DNA of 64,000 nt. Origin: Candidatus Koribacter versatilis Ellin345 (lineage in GTDB: Bacteria > Acidobacteriota > Terriglobia > Terriglobales > Acidobacteriaceae). The stretch is from positions 3,596,001 to 3,660,000 of the forward strand of contig NC_008009.1 in the NCBI RefSeq assembly GCF_000014005.1, in the 5' to 3' direction. The notes beneath the pieces were generated by a model. That model saw only the letters and a list, made by a program, of their open reading frames with translations. It was not told the DNA's origin and did not search any database. How positions within the stretch are numbered: the first letter of the stretch is position 1; the number at the start of each line of letters is the position of its first letter. The position numbers were made by a program, and so were the translations under genes. Positions 24,344 through 30,276 of the stretch are shown here, one piece after another.

Positions 24344-26485
24344 ATGGCCGGCAGTTTTCGCCCCACGCTAAAACAGATTTTTGGCGTTAGCCTGATCGGG
24401 CTCACGGTAGCACTCGTGTTGCTCTACACGGTGTTCTCTGCTGGTTCGCAGCGCACCATTCTTGAGAGTGCGGAGCGGTTCCGGATCGCCGCCAGCCAGG
24501 AAGCCGCCACCCGTGTGGATAACTCGCTGAACATCGCTCCCCGCGCTGCACAAGAGTTTGAGCGGCAGATCCATTACGGCATCACCAATGAACGTAATAT
24601 TGCGTCGGTCGAAGCCGGTCTGCTGCAACTCTTCATCGCCAACGAAAGCGTTTCGGAAGCTAGTTTCACGCACGCGCATTCGTCGGGCTTCGATAGCGAC
24701 GACAACCTGAAAGTCGTTCCGAAAAGCGCGATCGAAGTTTCCGTGTATCGCACGAGAGACTCTGACGTAATCACGTCGAGTCGCACCTGGTGGGAGAAAG
24801 ACAAATATGTCGCCGAATCGCATCAGCTGCCGCTCAGCGCGGGAACACCTGCTGCGACGCCGGTTCCCGACCCCACGTTGCACCTGACCTTCCAAGTGCC
24901 TGCCAGCCGAAACCGCCAAGGCCAGCTGCTCTGGACCGACTTGCACTGGTCGCAACTCGATGCCAATCTTCCGGAAAACAAGCGGCGCGTCGAAGTCAGC
25001 GTGCAGAAAGCGATTCTCGCTTCGGACGGCGAATTCGTCGGTGTGCTGCGTCTTGGCCTCGCGAAAGACCAGATTGACCGAGCGATTCACCTGCGTCTCA
25101 GCGGCGCAGGACAGGACGACCAGCACCTCGTCTTTCTCTGTGACAATACCGGGCGGCTGATCGCCGGGCCGGGAATGAACCGCGTTGTCGAGTCCGGCGA
25201 CGATCTCCGCATCGCCACCGATAACCAGCCTCCTGCGATTGTCGAAGCACTCAAACAACCGGCGCTCGGCAATATCGACAGCGATCACTCGATTGCCACG
25301 AATTCATTCCTCATCGGAAGTGAGCGTTACCTCGTCACCTACCGCGCGCTCGCCGGGACGCAGGGTTGGATCGTCGGCGTGGTGGTTCCGCGAGCCTACT
25401 ATTTGCGCGGGCTGGAACGTACGCGGCAAATCGTGCTCGGCGCGACGATTGGACTGATCGTCTTTACTCTTCTCATCGGCGCTTACATTCTTCGCCGCAT
25501 TAACCGAGCTCATTCTCTGCTCGTGCGGGAAACCCTCCGCATGAACCGCTTCGAATTTTCGCCGACGCCTGACCGCTCTCGCATTCGCGACGTCAACGAC
25601 GTCCTCGAAGGGTTGGAGCGTGCGAAGACTGCCGTGCGCGCTATGGGCAAATATGTTCCGCTTGATCTGGTTCGCGGGCTGTATCAGAAGGGCAAGGAGC
25701 CTGAACTCGGCGGCGAATCCGTCGAGCTCTCGATTCTCTTCACGGACATCAAGGACTTTACTACCGTCGCGGAGAAGATGGAGCCGCATCGTCTTGCCGA
25801 TGTCCTTGGTCTGTATTTGCAAACCATGACGCAGACCATCCAGAAAGAAAAGGGCACAATCGACAAGTTCATCGGCGATGCCGTGATGGCCTTCTGGAAC
25901 GCACCGGAGCCGGTTGGCTATCACGCTCTTCTTGCTTGTCACGCAGCGTTGAACTGCATGAGTGCTCTCAATCATTTGTTCGCGTCGCCCTCCTGGAAGG
26001 GCATTCCGCGATTCGAGACGCGGTTCGGATTGCATCGCGATACGGTTTCTGTGGGACATTTCGGCGCGCCCGACCGGTTCAACTACACCGCCATCGGCGA
26101 TGGCGTGAATCTCGCTTCGCGACTTGAAGCTCTTAACAAACAGTATGGGACTTCGATCATCGTTAGCGATGCGATGTATGTTGCAGCGAGCGACCACTTC
26201 GAATTCCGACGCTTGGACCGTGTTGCTGTGAAGGGCAAGAGTCGCGGCGTCGATGTCTATGAACTGGTTTGTGAGAAGGCAGAAGACGCGCAGCGCCCCG
26301 CTCATATTGTCCAATATGAAGAAGCGCTCACCGCTTACATGGATGCGGATTTCGAAGGTGCTCTGAGCGTATTCGCTGCCTTGCCCGCGGATCCGCCGAG
26401 CGTTGTCATGGCCAAGCGCTGCCGCGAGTTCCTGGCCCATCCTCCCGAGCTCTGGGACGGTACCTATGCCCTGCACACTAAATAG
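24344..26485 (+). CDS. Membrane-bound class III adenylate cyclase with extracytoplasmic sensor
   Basis: The 713-residue protein has a membrane segment near residues 15-33 (VSLIGLTVALVLLYTVFSAG), an extracytoplasmic sensor region of about 310 residues that resembles a double-Cache fold, a second membrane segment near 360-380 and a C-terminal cyclase domain. That domain has the metal aspartates in LFTDIKDFT (about 467 and 471), DKFIGDAVMAFWNAP and FNYTAIGDGVNLASRLE. The lysine of DKFIGD favours ATP as substrate. It probably makes cAMP in response to an external ligand. A TPR-like tail follows the catalytic domain. Ligand unknown. Confidence 0.88.
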   Translation: MAGSFRPTLKQIFGVSLIGLTVALVLLYTVFSAGSQRTILESAERFRIAASQEAATRVDNSLNIAPRAAQEFERQIHYGITNERNIASVEAGLLQLFIANESVSEASFTHAHSSGFDSDDNLKVVPKSAIEVSVYRTRDSDVITSSRTWWEKDKYVAESHQLPLSAGTPAATPVPDPTLHLTFQVPASRNRQGQLLWTDLHWSQLDANLPENKRRVEVSVQKAILASDGEFVGVLRLGLAKDQIDRAIHLRLSGAGQDDQHLVFLCDNTGRLIAGPGMNRVVESGDDLRIATDNQPPAIVEALKQPALGNIDSDHSIATNSFLIGSERYLVTYRALAGTQGWIVGVVVPRAYYLRGLERTRQIVLGATIGLIVFTLLIGAYILRRINRAHSLLVRETLRMNRFEFSPTPDRSRIRDVNDVLEGLERAKTAVRAMGKYVPLDLVRGLYQKGKEPELGGESVELSILFTDIKDFTTVAEKMEPHRLADVLGLYLQTMTQTIQKEKGTIDKFIGDAVMAFWNAPEPVGYHALLACHAALNCMSALNHLFASPSWKGIPRFETRFGLHRDTVSVGHFGAPDRFNYTAIGDGVNLASRLEALNKQYGTSIIVSDAMYVAASDHFEFRRLDRVAVKGKSRGVDVYELVCEKAEDAQRPAHIVQYEEALTAYMDADFEGALSVFAALPADPPSVVMAKRCREFLAHPPELWDGTYALHTK

Positions 26486-26507: not shown

Positions 26508-26555
26508 ATGAATCAATATCTCTTCGCGACGATTCGGGAGGGGATTCGTGGGTGA
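26508..26555 (+). CDS. Possible 15-residue leader peptide before the DedA gene
   Basis: The small frame MNQYLFATIREGIRG starts at an ATG preceded by GGAGG (4-5 nt) and ends in a TGA that overlaps the first codons of the DedA-rhodanese gene by 8 bp. This would allow translational coupling. There is no further support, and it may be chance. Confidence 0.3.
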   Translation: MNQYLFATIREGIRG

Positions 26556-27519
26556 GCTCGGCCATTTTTTAGAAGTCTACGGATACCTGGTCATATTTAT
26601 ATGGGTATTCGCCGAGCAGGTCGGACTCCCCATTCCCGCTCTTCCATTGCTGCTGTCCGCAGGCGCCCTGGCATGGCATGGCAGACTCAGTTTTCCGGTC
26701 GCGCTCATTACAGCTCTGATGGCCTGTCTCGCCGCTGACACGTTCTGGTACGAACTCGGCAAGCGCCGAGGATCCGCCGTTCTGAATGTGCTCTGCAAAA
26801 TGTCTCTCGAGCCCGACTCGTGCGTGGAGCGCACCCGAGGCGTCTTCGACCGCCGTGGTCCACGCTCCCTCCTCTACTCGAAGTTTGTGCCGGGACTCAA
26901 TACGGTAGCCGCGCCGATTGCCGGCATGTCGCGCATCTCCTACGAAAAATTCTTGCTGTTCGACATTCCGGGTTCGCTCTTGTGGTCTGGAACATTGCTT
27001 CTTCTCGGCTATTTATTCAGCGAGCGCGTCGATGCGATTCTTCAGCATTCGCAAATGGTCGGGCGTTTCCTGTTCATGGCTGCGGTGCTGGTTGTTATCG
27101 GCTGGATCCTTTGGAAATACGAGCAACGGCGACGTTTTCTTAAGTCCGTGAGCATCGGCCGCATTACGCCCGAGGAACTGCACTCGAAGCTGATCGCCGG
27201 CGAAACGCCCACGATCATCGACCTGCGCCATCCGCTCGACGTTCTCACGGATCCACGGGTGATTCCCGGCGCATTGCAAATCCGCATGGACGATCTCGCG
27301 AAACGAGCCAAGGAAATCCCGCGCGATCGCGAAATCATTTTGTACTGTACTTGACCAAACGAAGCTAGCAGCGCCCGTGCGGCGCTGGAACTGAGGAAGG
27401 TCGGGATACGGCAGGTGCGTCCACTGGCTGGTGGGCTGAATGAATGGAAGCGTCTGAACCTTCCGCTTACCGAAGAACAACTGATCCAGTTGGGAACGGC
27501 CGTGACCGGCGACGCCTAA
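26548..27519 (+). CDS. DedA membrane protein fused to a rhodanese domain, with in-frame TGA (candidate selenoprotein)
   Basis: The GTG start has GGGAGGGG close upstream. Residues 1-205 are a DedA/SNARE-associated membrane domain (FAEQVGLPIPALPLLLSAGA, KFVPGLNTVAAPIAGMSR) as in lipid-carrier flippases. Residues 215-323 are a rhodanese domain (ETPTIIDLRHPLDVLTDPR, IPRDREIILYCT). The frame reads TGA at 27352-27354, just after YCT, then continues without another stop as PNEASSARAALELRK, PLAGGLNEWKRLNLPL and on to a TAA at 27517-27519. As I recall, related proteins have YCTCPNE, so TGA replaces the second cysteine. A hairpin 21 nt downstream could be a bacterial SECIS. The alternative is a nonsense mutation giving a 268-residue truncated protein. 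Confidence 0.7.
27369..27387 (+). promoter_or_regulatory. Candidate bacterial SECIS hairpin
   Basis: A perfect 7-bp stem, CAGCGCC (27369-27375) with GGCGCTG (27381-27387), encloses the five-base loop CGTGC. The loop begins 22 nt after the TGA, inside the 16-37 nt spacing expected of bacterial SECIS elements, and has a G as its second base. The same bases encode the common SARAAL segment, so the hairpin could also be a by-product of coding. Confidence 0.5.
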
Positions 27520-27527
27520 ACGACCTT

Positions 27528-30080
27528 CTATCCGACGACGGAGCTGGACTCTGACGCAGATGCCGGCGGCGCTGCTGTGAGAATGGCCTCTGGTTTGGGT
27601 TTGGGAACCCACGGCTGCTCGAATGGCCCGATGTGCCAGATATCTCGCGCGTATTCGAGGATCGTGCGATCGCTCGAGAATTTCCCGATTCGCGCGACAT
27701 TGATCGCAGCTTTGCGCGACCATAGCTCCTGGTCGAGGTAGTCCTCGTCCACCGACTCATTGATCTCGACGTACGAGGGCAAGTCCGCAAGATGGAAATA
27801 ACGATCGCCGCGATAAAGAATTTCGTCCACAATCCAGCGGAATAACCCAGGCTCCTGCGGTGAGAAGCGATCGCTGCCCAGGGAATCCATTACGGCCTTG
27901 GTGCGCTCGTTCTTGGCGTAGTATTCCTGCGCGTTGTAGAGGCCCTTGCGCTTCATCTCCTCGATCTGCTCTACCCGCAATCCGAAGAGATAAAAATTCT
28001 CTTCCCCGACTTCCTCAAGGATCTCGATGTTGGCGCCATCGTAGGTTCCGACGGTCAGCGCTCCGTTCATCGAGAGCTTCATGTTGCCGGTACCGGAGGC
28101 TTCCATGCCTGCGGTCGAAATCTGCTCGCTGACGTCGGCGGCCGGAATGATGATCTCAGCCAGCGAGACTCGATAGTCCGGCAAGAACGCAACCTTGATC
28201 CGGTCTTTCATCCGCGGATCGCTGTTCACCACTGACGCTACGTTGTGGATGAGCTTGATGATCTGTTTCGCTGCCCAGTATCCCGGTGCCGCTTTACCTG
28301 CAAACACAAACGTTCGCGGGACCTTGATCTCCACACCATGGTCCACGCATTGCAGATACTGATCGATAATGCGCATCACGTTCAGCAGTTGCCGCTTGTA
28401 CTCGTGAATGCGTTTGATCTGCACATCGAATAGCGACGACGTATAGACCTGCACGCCAGTCTGGTCGAAGATGACCTTCGCCAGCCGGTTTTTGTTGTGC
28501 TGTTTTACTTCACGGAATTTCGCGCGGAACGCCGCGTCATCGGCAAACTTCTGGAGCCCCCGCAGCAGCGAGAGATCAGTGACCCATCGCTCACCTATGG
28601 TTTCTGTGAGAAGCGCAGCGAGCCCGGGATTCGATTTGTGCAGCCACGGCCGTGGGGCCACGCCGTTTGTCTTATTGCTGAAACGCTCCGGCCACAACTT
28701 CGCAAAATCCGGCACCAGCGTGGATTTGACGAGCTCGCTATGCAATGCAGCCACGCCATTCACGGCATGGCTTCCGATGATCGCCAGGTGCGCCATGCGC
28801 ACTTGCTTGTCCGCGGCTTCCTCGATGATGGAGGTCCGCCGCATCAAGTCGGGATCGGTGAAGGAATATTCCGAAATGCTACGCAGGAACTGGTGATTGA
28901 TTCCGTAGATAAGCTGCATGTGCCGCGGCAGCACGCGCTCCATCAGCGATACCGACCAGCGTTCCAATGCTTCCGGCAGCAACGTGTGGTTGGTGTACGC
29001 GCAGGTGGCTTGGGTCAGTTCCCACGCCTGTTCCCACTCCAGCCCCTTCTCGTCAATGAACACGCGCATCAACTCCGCGACCGCAAGGCTCGGATGCGTA
29101 TCGTTCATCTGGATCGCGACCTTCGACGGGAACTGCTCGTAGCCTTTGTGATCGAGATCGTAGCGGCGCACCAGGTCGCCGATGGCACATGCGACCAGGA
29201 AGTACTCCTGCACCAATCGCAGTTCCTTGCCCGACATCACCGAGTCCGACGGATACAGCACGCGCGAAATGTTCTCGTTGCCGATCTTCTGCTCGACGGC
29301 GCGTATGTAATCGCCGCGGTTAAAGATCTCAATGTCGAAATCTTCCGAAGCGCGCGCTGCGAACAGTCGCAGGAAATTGACGGTCTCGCCGCCCCATCCG
29401 ACCACCGGCATATCGCTTGGAATGCCGAGCACGAATTTCTGGCTCGTCCAGATCTGCCGCAGATTGCCGTGGTTGTCACGTGAGGTCTCTACGCGGCCAT
29501 AAAGGGGAATGCTCAGCGCGCGATCCGGGCGTCCAATCTCGAACGGTGTGCCGTTGGCCTTCCAGCGGTCCGGCTTCTCGCGCTGGAAGCCACCGTTGAT
29601 CTCCTGCCGGAACAATCCGTACTCGTAGTCAATGCCATACCCATACCCCGGCATTCCCAAGGTCGCCAGAGACTCCAGGAAGCACGCCGCAAGACGACCC
29701 AAGCCACCGTTCCCGAGACCAGCATCGAGTTCGCACGCCAGGACGTCGTCCAACGACATCCCTATGCTCGCGAGCACCTCGCGCATCAGTTCCGTAATGC
29801 CAAGGTTGTGCAGGTTATCGTTCAGGGACCTTCCCATCAGAAACTCCATGGAAAGGTAGTACAGGCGCTTCGAGTCTTTACTGCGGACGCGCTCTTCGGT
29901 CTCGATCATGCGGTCCACAATGCGATCGCGGACGGCAAGCGACACGGGCGTCAGCAGCTCAACCGGCCCCAGAAGGCGCGGATTGCGCAGAACCAATGTG
30001 TACCGGATATGACGGTAAATCGCTTCGCGAAGCAGCTCGGCAGGCCGAACGTTCGGCAGTAAGTTCGAAGAGGAAGCCAT
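27528..30080 (-). CDS. glgP: Glycogen/maltodextrin phosphorylase
   Basis: This is an 850-residue GT35 enzyme releasing glucose 1-phosphate from alpha-1,4-glucans. Landmarks are LYYLSMEFLMGRSLNDNL near the N-terminus, GLGNGGLGRLAACFLESLATL, and the pyridoxal-phosphate lysine in ASGTGNMKLSMNGALTVGT, followed by YDGANIEI. The start at 30080 (MASSSNLLPNVRP) has GGAG very close upstream; the frame stays open to a GTG at 30236, but those 52 residues are not family-like. The gene ends 8 bp from the end of the convergent DedA-rhodanese reading frame. Confidence 0.95.
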   Translation of the reverse strand: MASSSNLLPNVRPAELLREAIYRHIRYTLVLRNPRLLGPVELLTPVSLAVRDRIVDRMIETEERVRSKDSKRLYYLSMEFLMGRSLNDNLHNLGITELMREVLASIGMSLDDVLACELDAGLGNGGLGRLAACFLESLATLGMPGYGYGIDYEYGLFRQEINGGFQREKPDRWKANGTPFEIGRPDRALSIPLYGRVETSRDNHGNLRQIWTSQKFVLGIPSDMPVVGWGGETVNFLRLFAARASEDFDIEIFNRGDYIRAVEQKIGNENISRVLYPSDSVMSGKELRLVQEYFLVACAIGDLVRRYDLDHKGYEQFPSKVAIQMNDTHPSLAVAELMRVFIDEKGLEWEQAWELTQATCAYTNHTLLPEALERWSVSLMERVLPRHMQLIYGINHQFLRSISEYSFTDPDLMRRTSIIEEAADKQVRMAHLAIIGSHAVNGVAALHSELVKSTLVPDFAKLWPERFSNKTNGVAPRPWLHKSNPGLAALLTETIGERWVTDLSLLRGLQKFADDAAFRAKFREVKQHNKNRLAKVIFDQTGVQVYTSSLFDVQIKRIHEYKRQLLNVMRIIDQYLQCVDHGVEIKVPRTFVFAGKAAPGYWAAKQIIKLIHNVASVVNSDPRMKDRIKVAFLPDYRVSLAEIIIPAADVSEQISTAGMEASGTGNMKLSMNGALTVGTYDGANIEILEEVGEENFYLFGLRVEQIEEMKRKGLYNAQEYYAKNERTKAVMDSLGSDRFSPQEPGLFRWIVDEILYRGDRYFHLADLPSYVEINESVDEDYLDQELWSRKAAINVARIGKFSSDRTILEYARDIWHIGPFEQPWVPKPKPEAILTAAPPASASESSSVVG

Positions 30081-30276
30081 GGACTCCAGGCCTGTAACGG
30101 CCGAGCTTTGAGAGGTCCTTCTTAGAGGTCCTTCCCGTTTCGCGCGGGGCTCACCTGTTTCGTTCGACCAACGATACAGATACGCCACTTTTACCCCGAG
30201 CGGTGCGTTCATTGTACCCGAATCCCCCATCGGCACGATGAGAGAAGAAGGTTACTGAGTGGCTAATTAAATCGAA

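Follow-up and report, generated by a model that had tools for sequence, protein, structure and literature searches.

A putative selenocysteine-containing fusion of a DedA-type membrane domain and a CxU rhodanese in Candidatus Koribacter versatilis and other Acidobacteriota

Selenoproteins of the CxU rhodanese type and fusions between DedA and rhodanese domains are both already in print, each separately. The 2026 compilation of 119 selenoprotein families (PMC13188914) includes five rhodanese forms, among them a CxU form and TsoB, and its Table 1 lists the former as rhodanese-like selenoprotein form 3 (NF041203, rhodanese_LYCAU). TsoB (NF045694, rhodanese/DsbD fusion-like) unites, judging by its name, a selenocysteine (Sec) rhodanese and a DsbD-like part in one selenoprotein. 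The 119 families of that table include no DedA, VTT or SNARE-associated entry, and in the open-licence literature we found no paper on a DedA-rhodanese selenoprotein or on selenocysteine in Koribacter. DedA-rhodanese fusions such as Pseudomonas aeruginosa PA1209 belong to COG0586 and have the VTT domain followed by the rhodanese domain (PMC10127716, PMC12893004); the passages of these two papers that deal with the fusions do not mention Sec or a Cys pair. According to the pertinent section of PMC10127716, COG0586 is the subfamily of putative undecaprenyl phosphate (UndP) flippases, in which Glu39, Asp51, Arg130 and Arg136 (YghB numbering) are essential, and the connection to rhodanese domains is called unclear. 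Fusions of DedA proteins to pyridine nucleotide-disulfide oxidoreductases (COG0398) likewise combine a VTT domain with thiol redox machinery; they represent a different DedA subfamily and a different partner, and the same section reports no Sec for them. With respect to Acidobacteriota, the table of a 2006 survey (PMC1794560) gives three selenoprotein families, and Occallatibacter riparius has three known selenoprotein genes, which are unnamed in the relevant part of PMC12013277, so that an annotated relative of the gene described here may exist.

Here we describe a gene in Candidatus Koribacter versatilis Ellin345 that appears to encode something new, a membrane-fused VTT version of the known CxU rhodanese selenoprotein. 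It lies in a stretch of 64,000 nucleotides, which was analysed as a whole and is referred to as the window; positions are those of the window, and the features are as follows.

26548 to 27519, forward strand: candidate VTT(DedA)-rhodanese fusion selenoprotein gene, 323 aa with Sec as residue 269, start codon GTG as in the list of open reading frames
26632 to 27012, forward strand: VTT (DedA) membrane domain, residues 29-155 (Pfam PF09335, E 3.3e-11)
26794 to 26796, forward strand: codon for Cys83, kept in 65/66 aligned fused homologues
26821 to 26823, forward strand: codon for Cys92, kept in 65/66 aligned fused homologues
27166 to 27453, forward strand: rhodanese domain, residues 207-302 (Pfam PF00581, E 9.1e-12)
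27346 to 27348, forward strand: codon for Cys267, invariant (66/66), matching in alignment the Cys of a rhodanese of solved structure
27352 to 27354, forward strand: in-frame TGA, read as Sec (U269), Cys in relatives
27369 to 27387, forward strand: SECIS-like stem-loop CAGCGCC-CGTGC-GGCGCTG, from hairpin folding and comparison of loci

An initial annotation, made from the letters and their open reading frames, had proposed a TGA inside a DedA-rhodanese reading frame that stays open for another 54 codons. Our reading of the open reading frames agrees: 54 sense codons follow the TGA at 27352-27354 before the TAA at 27517-27519, and the frame through the TGA reads ...EIILYC-T-U-PNEASSARAAL...PLAGGLNEWKRLNLPL... 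With the TGA read through, Pfam reports the VTT domain at 44.2 bits (cut-off 33.9) and the rhodanese domain at 45.8 bits, also above its cut-off; were the TGA taken as a stop, the annotated gene would end at 268 aa and the end of the rhodanese domain would be lost. An AlphaFold model of the fusion has a mean pLDDT of 91 over the whole model and a pTM of 0.79, with a helical VTT domain. Foldseek matches the rhodanese half to solved rhodaneses with a probability of 1.00 (e.g. 3gk5, TM 0.88 by target length), and among the best 50 of 359 matches the aligned lengths suit the rhodanese half and none fits the VTT half. Rfam at its gathering thresholds and ARAGORN gave no ncRNA match and no tRNA, respectively, in the 64-kb window. 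The closest named relatives of the fusion gene in a scan of public genome contigs are for the most part labelled Acidobacteria.

The gene is flanked upstream by what we take to be a cyclase-like protein (24344-26485) and, on the other strand, by what is presumably a glycogen-phosphorylase-like protein (27528-30236). By eye, neither of these recurs at the 13 other TGA loci inspected, and in the 14 TGA loci altogether no neighbour recurs beyond loci of one genus. Inspection of the longest flanking frames of the same 14 loci gave no support for a sulfur or selenium pathway in the gene neighbourhood.

The rhodanese half of the window protein and NF041203 have the rhodanese fold and the placement of the CxU motif in common. 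NF041203 models 126 positions, and the fused proteins add to this a membrane VTT domain with a Cys pair of its own. Against its cut-off of 115 bits, the window protein scores 72.2 and four fused relatives 75.1, 81.5, 85.0 and 88.1, i.e. all below; of the six Sec rhodaneses without the VTT part, the five scanned score 83-125 bits, and one of these (L123, 125.4 bits) passes. TsoB differs in having two Sec (UxxxxU; Table 1 in PMC13188914) and in carrying a DsbD-like part where the fusions described here have VTT; the window protein, with its single Sec and 14 bits against the NF045694 cut-off of 805, is not TsoB.

The host genome (5,650,368 bases in one contig, 100% complete according to the tool used) was searched for selA, selB, selC and selD, the absence of which would have spoken against Sec, and all four were found: selA at 560.5 bits, selB at 360.8 bits and selD at 363.2 bits, all above cut-off, and a tRNA-Sec at 66.4 bits, which ARAGORN also identifies as tRNA-SeC with anticodon TCA. 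These genes and the fusion gene lie far apart on the chromosome, without linkage. The selD gene (L018, G000:C1:102988-103917) itself has an in-frame TGA (KAAGUASKL), which we take to be the known Sec site of SelD, and the host SelD is thus probably a selenoprotein too.

To compare relatives we pooled loci from 396 genomes of the phylum, searched with read-through allowed, from public genome contigs that were scanned, and from fetched stretches; the sampling of the Sec form thus covers Acidobacteriota. Near-copies were kept in both locus sources and some of the proteins are identical, while VTT-only matches with in-frame stops (G258:C198 and G084:C20) were left out. Among the matches listed, 139 loci span the Sec column, with TGC in 58, TGA in 38 (the window's own included), TGT in 37 and other codons in six. 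Seven of the 139 (L127, L128, L156-L160) were omitted from the Sec/Cys counts on account of a degenerate motif or an alignment running into an unrelated tail, leaving 132 usable loci among the matches listed, 38 with TGA and at least 94 with TGC or TGT. All TGA matches spanning the column, among those listed, were fetched, and the Cys count is a lower bound since approximately nine more non-TGA matches (≈30% identity) spanning the column were left out; moreover, the contig scan used six patterns including YCTCPNEA and returned 51 loci, all Cys, so this part of the sample is biased towards Cys. The Cys relatives (YCTCPNE) that the initial annotation had named are real, TGA and Cys do alternate at this column, and the possibility it had raised that TGA is private to this isolate falls away, the same column being TGA in 37 other loci. 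A tree built with the Sec/Cys residue masked, from 32 Sec and 87 Cys fused proteins (119 in all), requires at least ten changes between Sec and Cys, five of them forced by well-supported branches; the tree is a quick one with several long branches and these figures are rough. For the codons after the TGA, synonymous to nonsynonymous differences were 15:4, 5:10, 14:7, 9:8 and 8:3 in five close pairs (synonymous in excess in four, the reverse in one), 10:10 in one further pair, and 12:20 and 13:17 between the window and two distant relatives.

The 38 TGA loci comprise 32 fusions and six rhodaneses without a matching VTT part (L121-L126), which come from the same phylum and have the same motif and hairpin. 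Three genomes (G341, G192 and G258) have both the fused form and such a Sec rhodanese without VTT. A second and more divergent group of Sec VTT-rhodanese fusions (L114-L120) was also seen, in which L116-L120 have Leu, Ala or Gln instead of Pro after Sec; the Cys members L161 and L162 group with it, and genomes G188 and G257 have Sec copies from both fused groups. Genomes with Cys copies also contain paralogous fusions (L127, L156-L159) where the second Cys of CxC is replaced (CSS, CAS, CNR), which suggests loss of the CxC chemistry; L127 in addition has an in-frame TAG. One fused Cys gene (L155, G221:C8:1595-2484), from a genome with both selA and tRNA-Sec, is split in two overlapping frames, reflecting either a frameshift or an assembly error. 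Finally, a TGA reported in a DedA paralogue of the host (L129) was considered as a Sec codon and rejected, as it is the ordinary stop of that gene.

The Sec machinery was compared between 33 genomes with a TGA copy and 40 with Cys copies only (73 in total). A selA match above cut-off is present in 32 of the former (all except G341), whereas only four of the latter have one (G394, G068, G043 and G221), and these same four are the only Cys genomes with a tRNA-Sec of at least 60 bits, compared to 29/33 TGA genomes; in the other four TGA genomes (G215, G330, G230 and G026) the best tRNA-Sec match is 50-51 bits. When restricted to the fused genes in the tree, selA is found in 29/30 TGA vs 3/39 Cys genomes (Fisher P 6e-15, ignoring relatedness); the machinery and the TGA share phylogeny, with only two to three independent pairs, so that a sign test would have no power. 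In G341, whose assembly is 97% complete, there are a TGA copy and a tRNA-Sec of 72.8 bits, and the missing selA match above cut-off may be due to a missing contig or to another route of Sec synthesis. The persistence of Cys forms without selA above cut-off, in 36 of the 40 Cys genomes, indicates that the reaction also runs with sulfur, and Sec presumably tunes its rate or its resistance to over-oxidation.

At the RNA level, the 7-bp hairpin CAGCGCC-CGTGC-GGCGCTG begins 15 nt after the TGA, with its loop starting at 22 nt and its end at 33 nt. The stem, loop and spacing are just as the initial annotation had described them, and the G it had noted in the first two loop bases is the second base. 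The hairpin thus has the layout of a bacterial SECIS element, a stem-loop immediately 3' of UGA with a G in the first two loop bases (distance and G rule as given in that annotation). Conserved loop guanosines are also noted in a figure legend in PMC1088965. Among 37 distinct sequences of the family the loop G (column 26) never varies. Folding of 41 nt from the TGA gives exactly this hairpin at -13.5 kcal/mol, with 32/200 shuffled sequences being as good (z -1.03); the corresponding values are z -2.09 and 7/200 for 59 nt from the TGA, where UGACC pairs at the base of the hairpin and the structure reaches approximately 27403, and z -0.31 and 70/200 for 56 nt beginning 7 nt ahead of the TGA. The hairpin energy alone is unexceptional and too weak by itself. 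What places the hairpin beyond chance is that the TGA, the hairpin register and the loop codons recur in 37 other loci.

Specifically, each of the inner four stem pairs is formed in 95-100% of the 38 TGA loci, whereas two of them are formed in only 36% and 44% of the 94 Cys loci. The two outermost pairs show no such gain (45% and 39% in the TGA loci vs 46% and 64% in the Cys loci), so the conserved core of the stem amounts to four to five pairs. Compared with synonymous-codon shuffles, the window has 7/7 pairs vs a mean of 3.6 (equalled or exceeded in a fraction of 0.008), fused TGA loci (32) on average 5.6 vs 3.9 (median fraction 0.12 per locus), the six TGA loci without VTT 5.2 vs 4.3, and 88 fused Cys loci 4.3 vs 3.8; the folding energy of the 32 fused TGA loci improves little on such shuffles (mean z -0.53, with 4/32 below 0.05). 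The clearest sign is the Arg codon in the loop: two of the TGA loci have Ser at this codon, and of the 36 with Arg, 35 use CGT or CGG, while CGC is the commonest Arg codon in the upstream part of these genes (250 codons at most; 348/705, vs 230/705 for CGT and CGG together; Fisher P for loop vs upstream 1.2e-15, ignoring relatedness), and in Cys loci with Arg at this codon CGT or CGG is used in 5/20. This bias in the TGA copies indicates that the RNA is constrained beyond the protein. The stem covariation score was 0.079 vs a shuffled mean of 0.054, with 28/500 shuffles as high, classical covariation being weak because the stem hardly varies. A hairpin model built from the family (R1) recovered the window's site in the host genome with E 2.4e-10 and six more sites with E between 0.04 and 8.9; the next three matches (L170, L171 and L172) were rejected as selenoprotein sites since a plausible selenoprotein frame is absent.

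Taken together, the machinery, the alternation of TGA and Cys, the association with selA and the recoding signal strongly support the Sec candidate, and we put the probability that the TGA at 27352 is decoded as selenocysteine at roughly 0.95. That Sec decoding goes together with a redox role of the CxU motif in sulfur or selenium handling we regard as probable.

As to the rhodanese half, PF00581, Foldseek and the alignment of Cys267 all indicate a rhodanese fold with a catalytic Cys, and a CxU motif is present at the active-site loop as in NF041203. In the protein alignment and model, made from 66 of the 119 fused proteins with the window's gene included, Cys267 and residue 269 (Cys or Sec) are invariant. 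Cys267 aligns with the Cys of VCRAG in the rhodanese part of BpPRF, at chain position 334; C314 is named as the rhodanese-inactivating position in the title of a structure entry, and we infer that position 334 is C314, offset by a 20-residue tag. As Cys267 thus occupies the position of the rhodanese persulfide Cys, Sec269 would be the +2 residue of a CxU pair. The placement of Sec in the active-site loop by the initial annotation therefore stands as far as the loop is concerned, although the residue lies two positions past that of the persulfide Cys.

In the VTT half, Cys83 and Cys92 lie in the motif LC[RK]xSLEPDSC and are kept in 65 of the 66 aligned fused proteins, the exception being L095 with a gap and an unknown residue there. 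The 17 loci fetched as VTT-only matches include 14 without both cysteines and three that keep both; of these three, L178 has a rhodanese part just downstream in another frame (14/16 are without the pair if it is set aside), and in L160 and L176 a rhodanese domain was not found. Both positions are His in L177 (G265:C4:120265-120861), a close VTT-only relative whose genome contains the fused Sec form as well. In the AlphaFold model the two cysteines lie on successive helices, Cys83 close to where the first ends and Cys92 close to where the second begins. The loop with the two cysteines (residues 70-104) has eight Lys/Arg vs four Asp/Glu, and the segment before the rhodanese domain (residues 193-206) five vs none; by the positive-inside rule this charge distribution suggests that both the Cys pair and the rhodanese domain probably face the cytosol.

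On this basis the following sequence of events can be proposed. SelB with Sec-tRNA would bind the stem-loop just past the UGA at 27352 and insert Sec, whereupon translation would continue through the rhodanese domain and yield a membrane protein of the VTT(DedA) type, carrying at its C terminus a probably cytosolic rhodanese domain. Cys267 and Sec269 would form the CxU pair, in which Cys267 would become a persulfide or perselenide on accepting sulfane sulfur or selenium, and the attack of Sec269 on this group would free sulfide or selenide and leave a Cys-Sec bond, with which the Cys83/Cys92 pair could then exchange electrons. Overall, the protein would work as a membrane-anchored reductase or transferase for persulfides (or selenium/sulfur oxyanions), not as a flippase for lipid carriers. 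A relay through the four residues Cys83, Cys92, Cys267 and Sec269 is a tentative proposal, with odds of about one in three. Speaking against it, the VTT-only relatives L160 and L176 retain the Cys pair although no rhodanese domain was found in them. Slightly more speculative still are the passage of electrons, or of sulfane sulfur or selenium, between the two VTT cysteines and the CxU loop, and the conversion of a flippase-type VTT domain into a Sec-driven thiol relay with the CxU loop, at or across the membrane.

An alternative that accepts the selenoprotein keeps the VTT half as a lipid flippase, which the rhodanese half would sense or tune by sulfur or selenium chemistry. The assignment of DedA-rhodanese fusions to COG0586, with its putative UndP flippases (PMC10127716, subfamily section), agrees with this, as do the equivalents of Glu39, which is E or D in 61/66, and of Arg130, which is Lys in 66/66 and hence still basic. 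Against it, the equivalent of Arg136 is Ser, Asn, Ala or Gly in all 66 and never Arg, the PGE acid corresponding to Asp51 is D or E in only 3/66, and a new Cys pair is fixed in the domain; which acid is Glu39 and which Asp51 is our reading of the alignment with the 17 loci fetched as VTT-only matches. Relative to the COG0586 fusions, three of the four UndP-site residues are replaced in this family; the VTT domain of a COG0586 flippase is there, without its full basic pair and its full acid pair. The site thus looks remodelled, flipping of the same lipid, undecaprenyl phosphate, by the VTT half seems unlikely, and we give this alternative about one chance in five. The description of the DedA domain as flippase-like in the initial annotation accordingly holds for the VTT fold match and not for the residues.

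Less probable again, by about half, is that the VTT half admits a selenium or sulfur oxyanion, which the Sec-rhodanese reduces or passes on, e.g. towards SelD. For a DedA protein of Cupriavidus metallidurans, a connection with the uptake of selenite or resistance to it has been reported (Ledgham 2005, as cited in PMC8679861 and PMC10127716), and the alteration of acids and arginines at the phosphate-lipid site would fit such a role. That 36/40 Cys genomes have the Cys version and no selA above cut-off argues against selenium supply alone as the core role, and the fusion gene is not linked to the sel genes in the host genome.

Read-through of the UGA without Sec, e.g. by a near-cognate tRNA, would leave the frame open just as well; it is very improbable given that the alternative residue is Cys, that selA and tRNA-Sec co-occur with the TGA, and that read-through of this kind would need no loop kept at synonymous sites. 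The reading that an ordinary Cys DedA-rhodanese gene has recently suffered a nonsense mutation, or contains a sequencing error, as the preponderance of TGC/TGT among the sampled relatives (at least 94/132, 51 of them from the Cys-biased scan) might suggest, is rejected with near certainty, because the TGA recurs at the same codon in 37 other loci and is tied to selA and tRNA-Sec, constraint on the loop codons is seen in the TGA copies but is absent from the Cys copies, and the frame downstream of the TGA is conserved.

Read as a Sec-containing fusion, this gene extends the bacterial selenoproteome, within Acidobacteriota, by an architecture in which the selenoprotein is fused to a membrane domain. 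It also bears on why rhodanese domains join DedA proteins, a connection that is unclear according to the relevant section of PMC10127716, in that thiol/selenol redox chemistry, and not lipid-carrier recycling, is what the Sec variants suggest together with the fixed Cys pair. If true, the relay would constitute a membrane redox module with a logic like that of DsbD or the rhodanese-DsbD fusions in a different membrane fold, and the family-wide Cys pair in the VTT domain makes the redox-relay reading testable.
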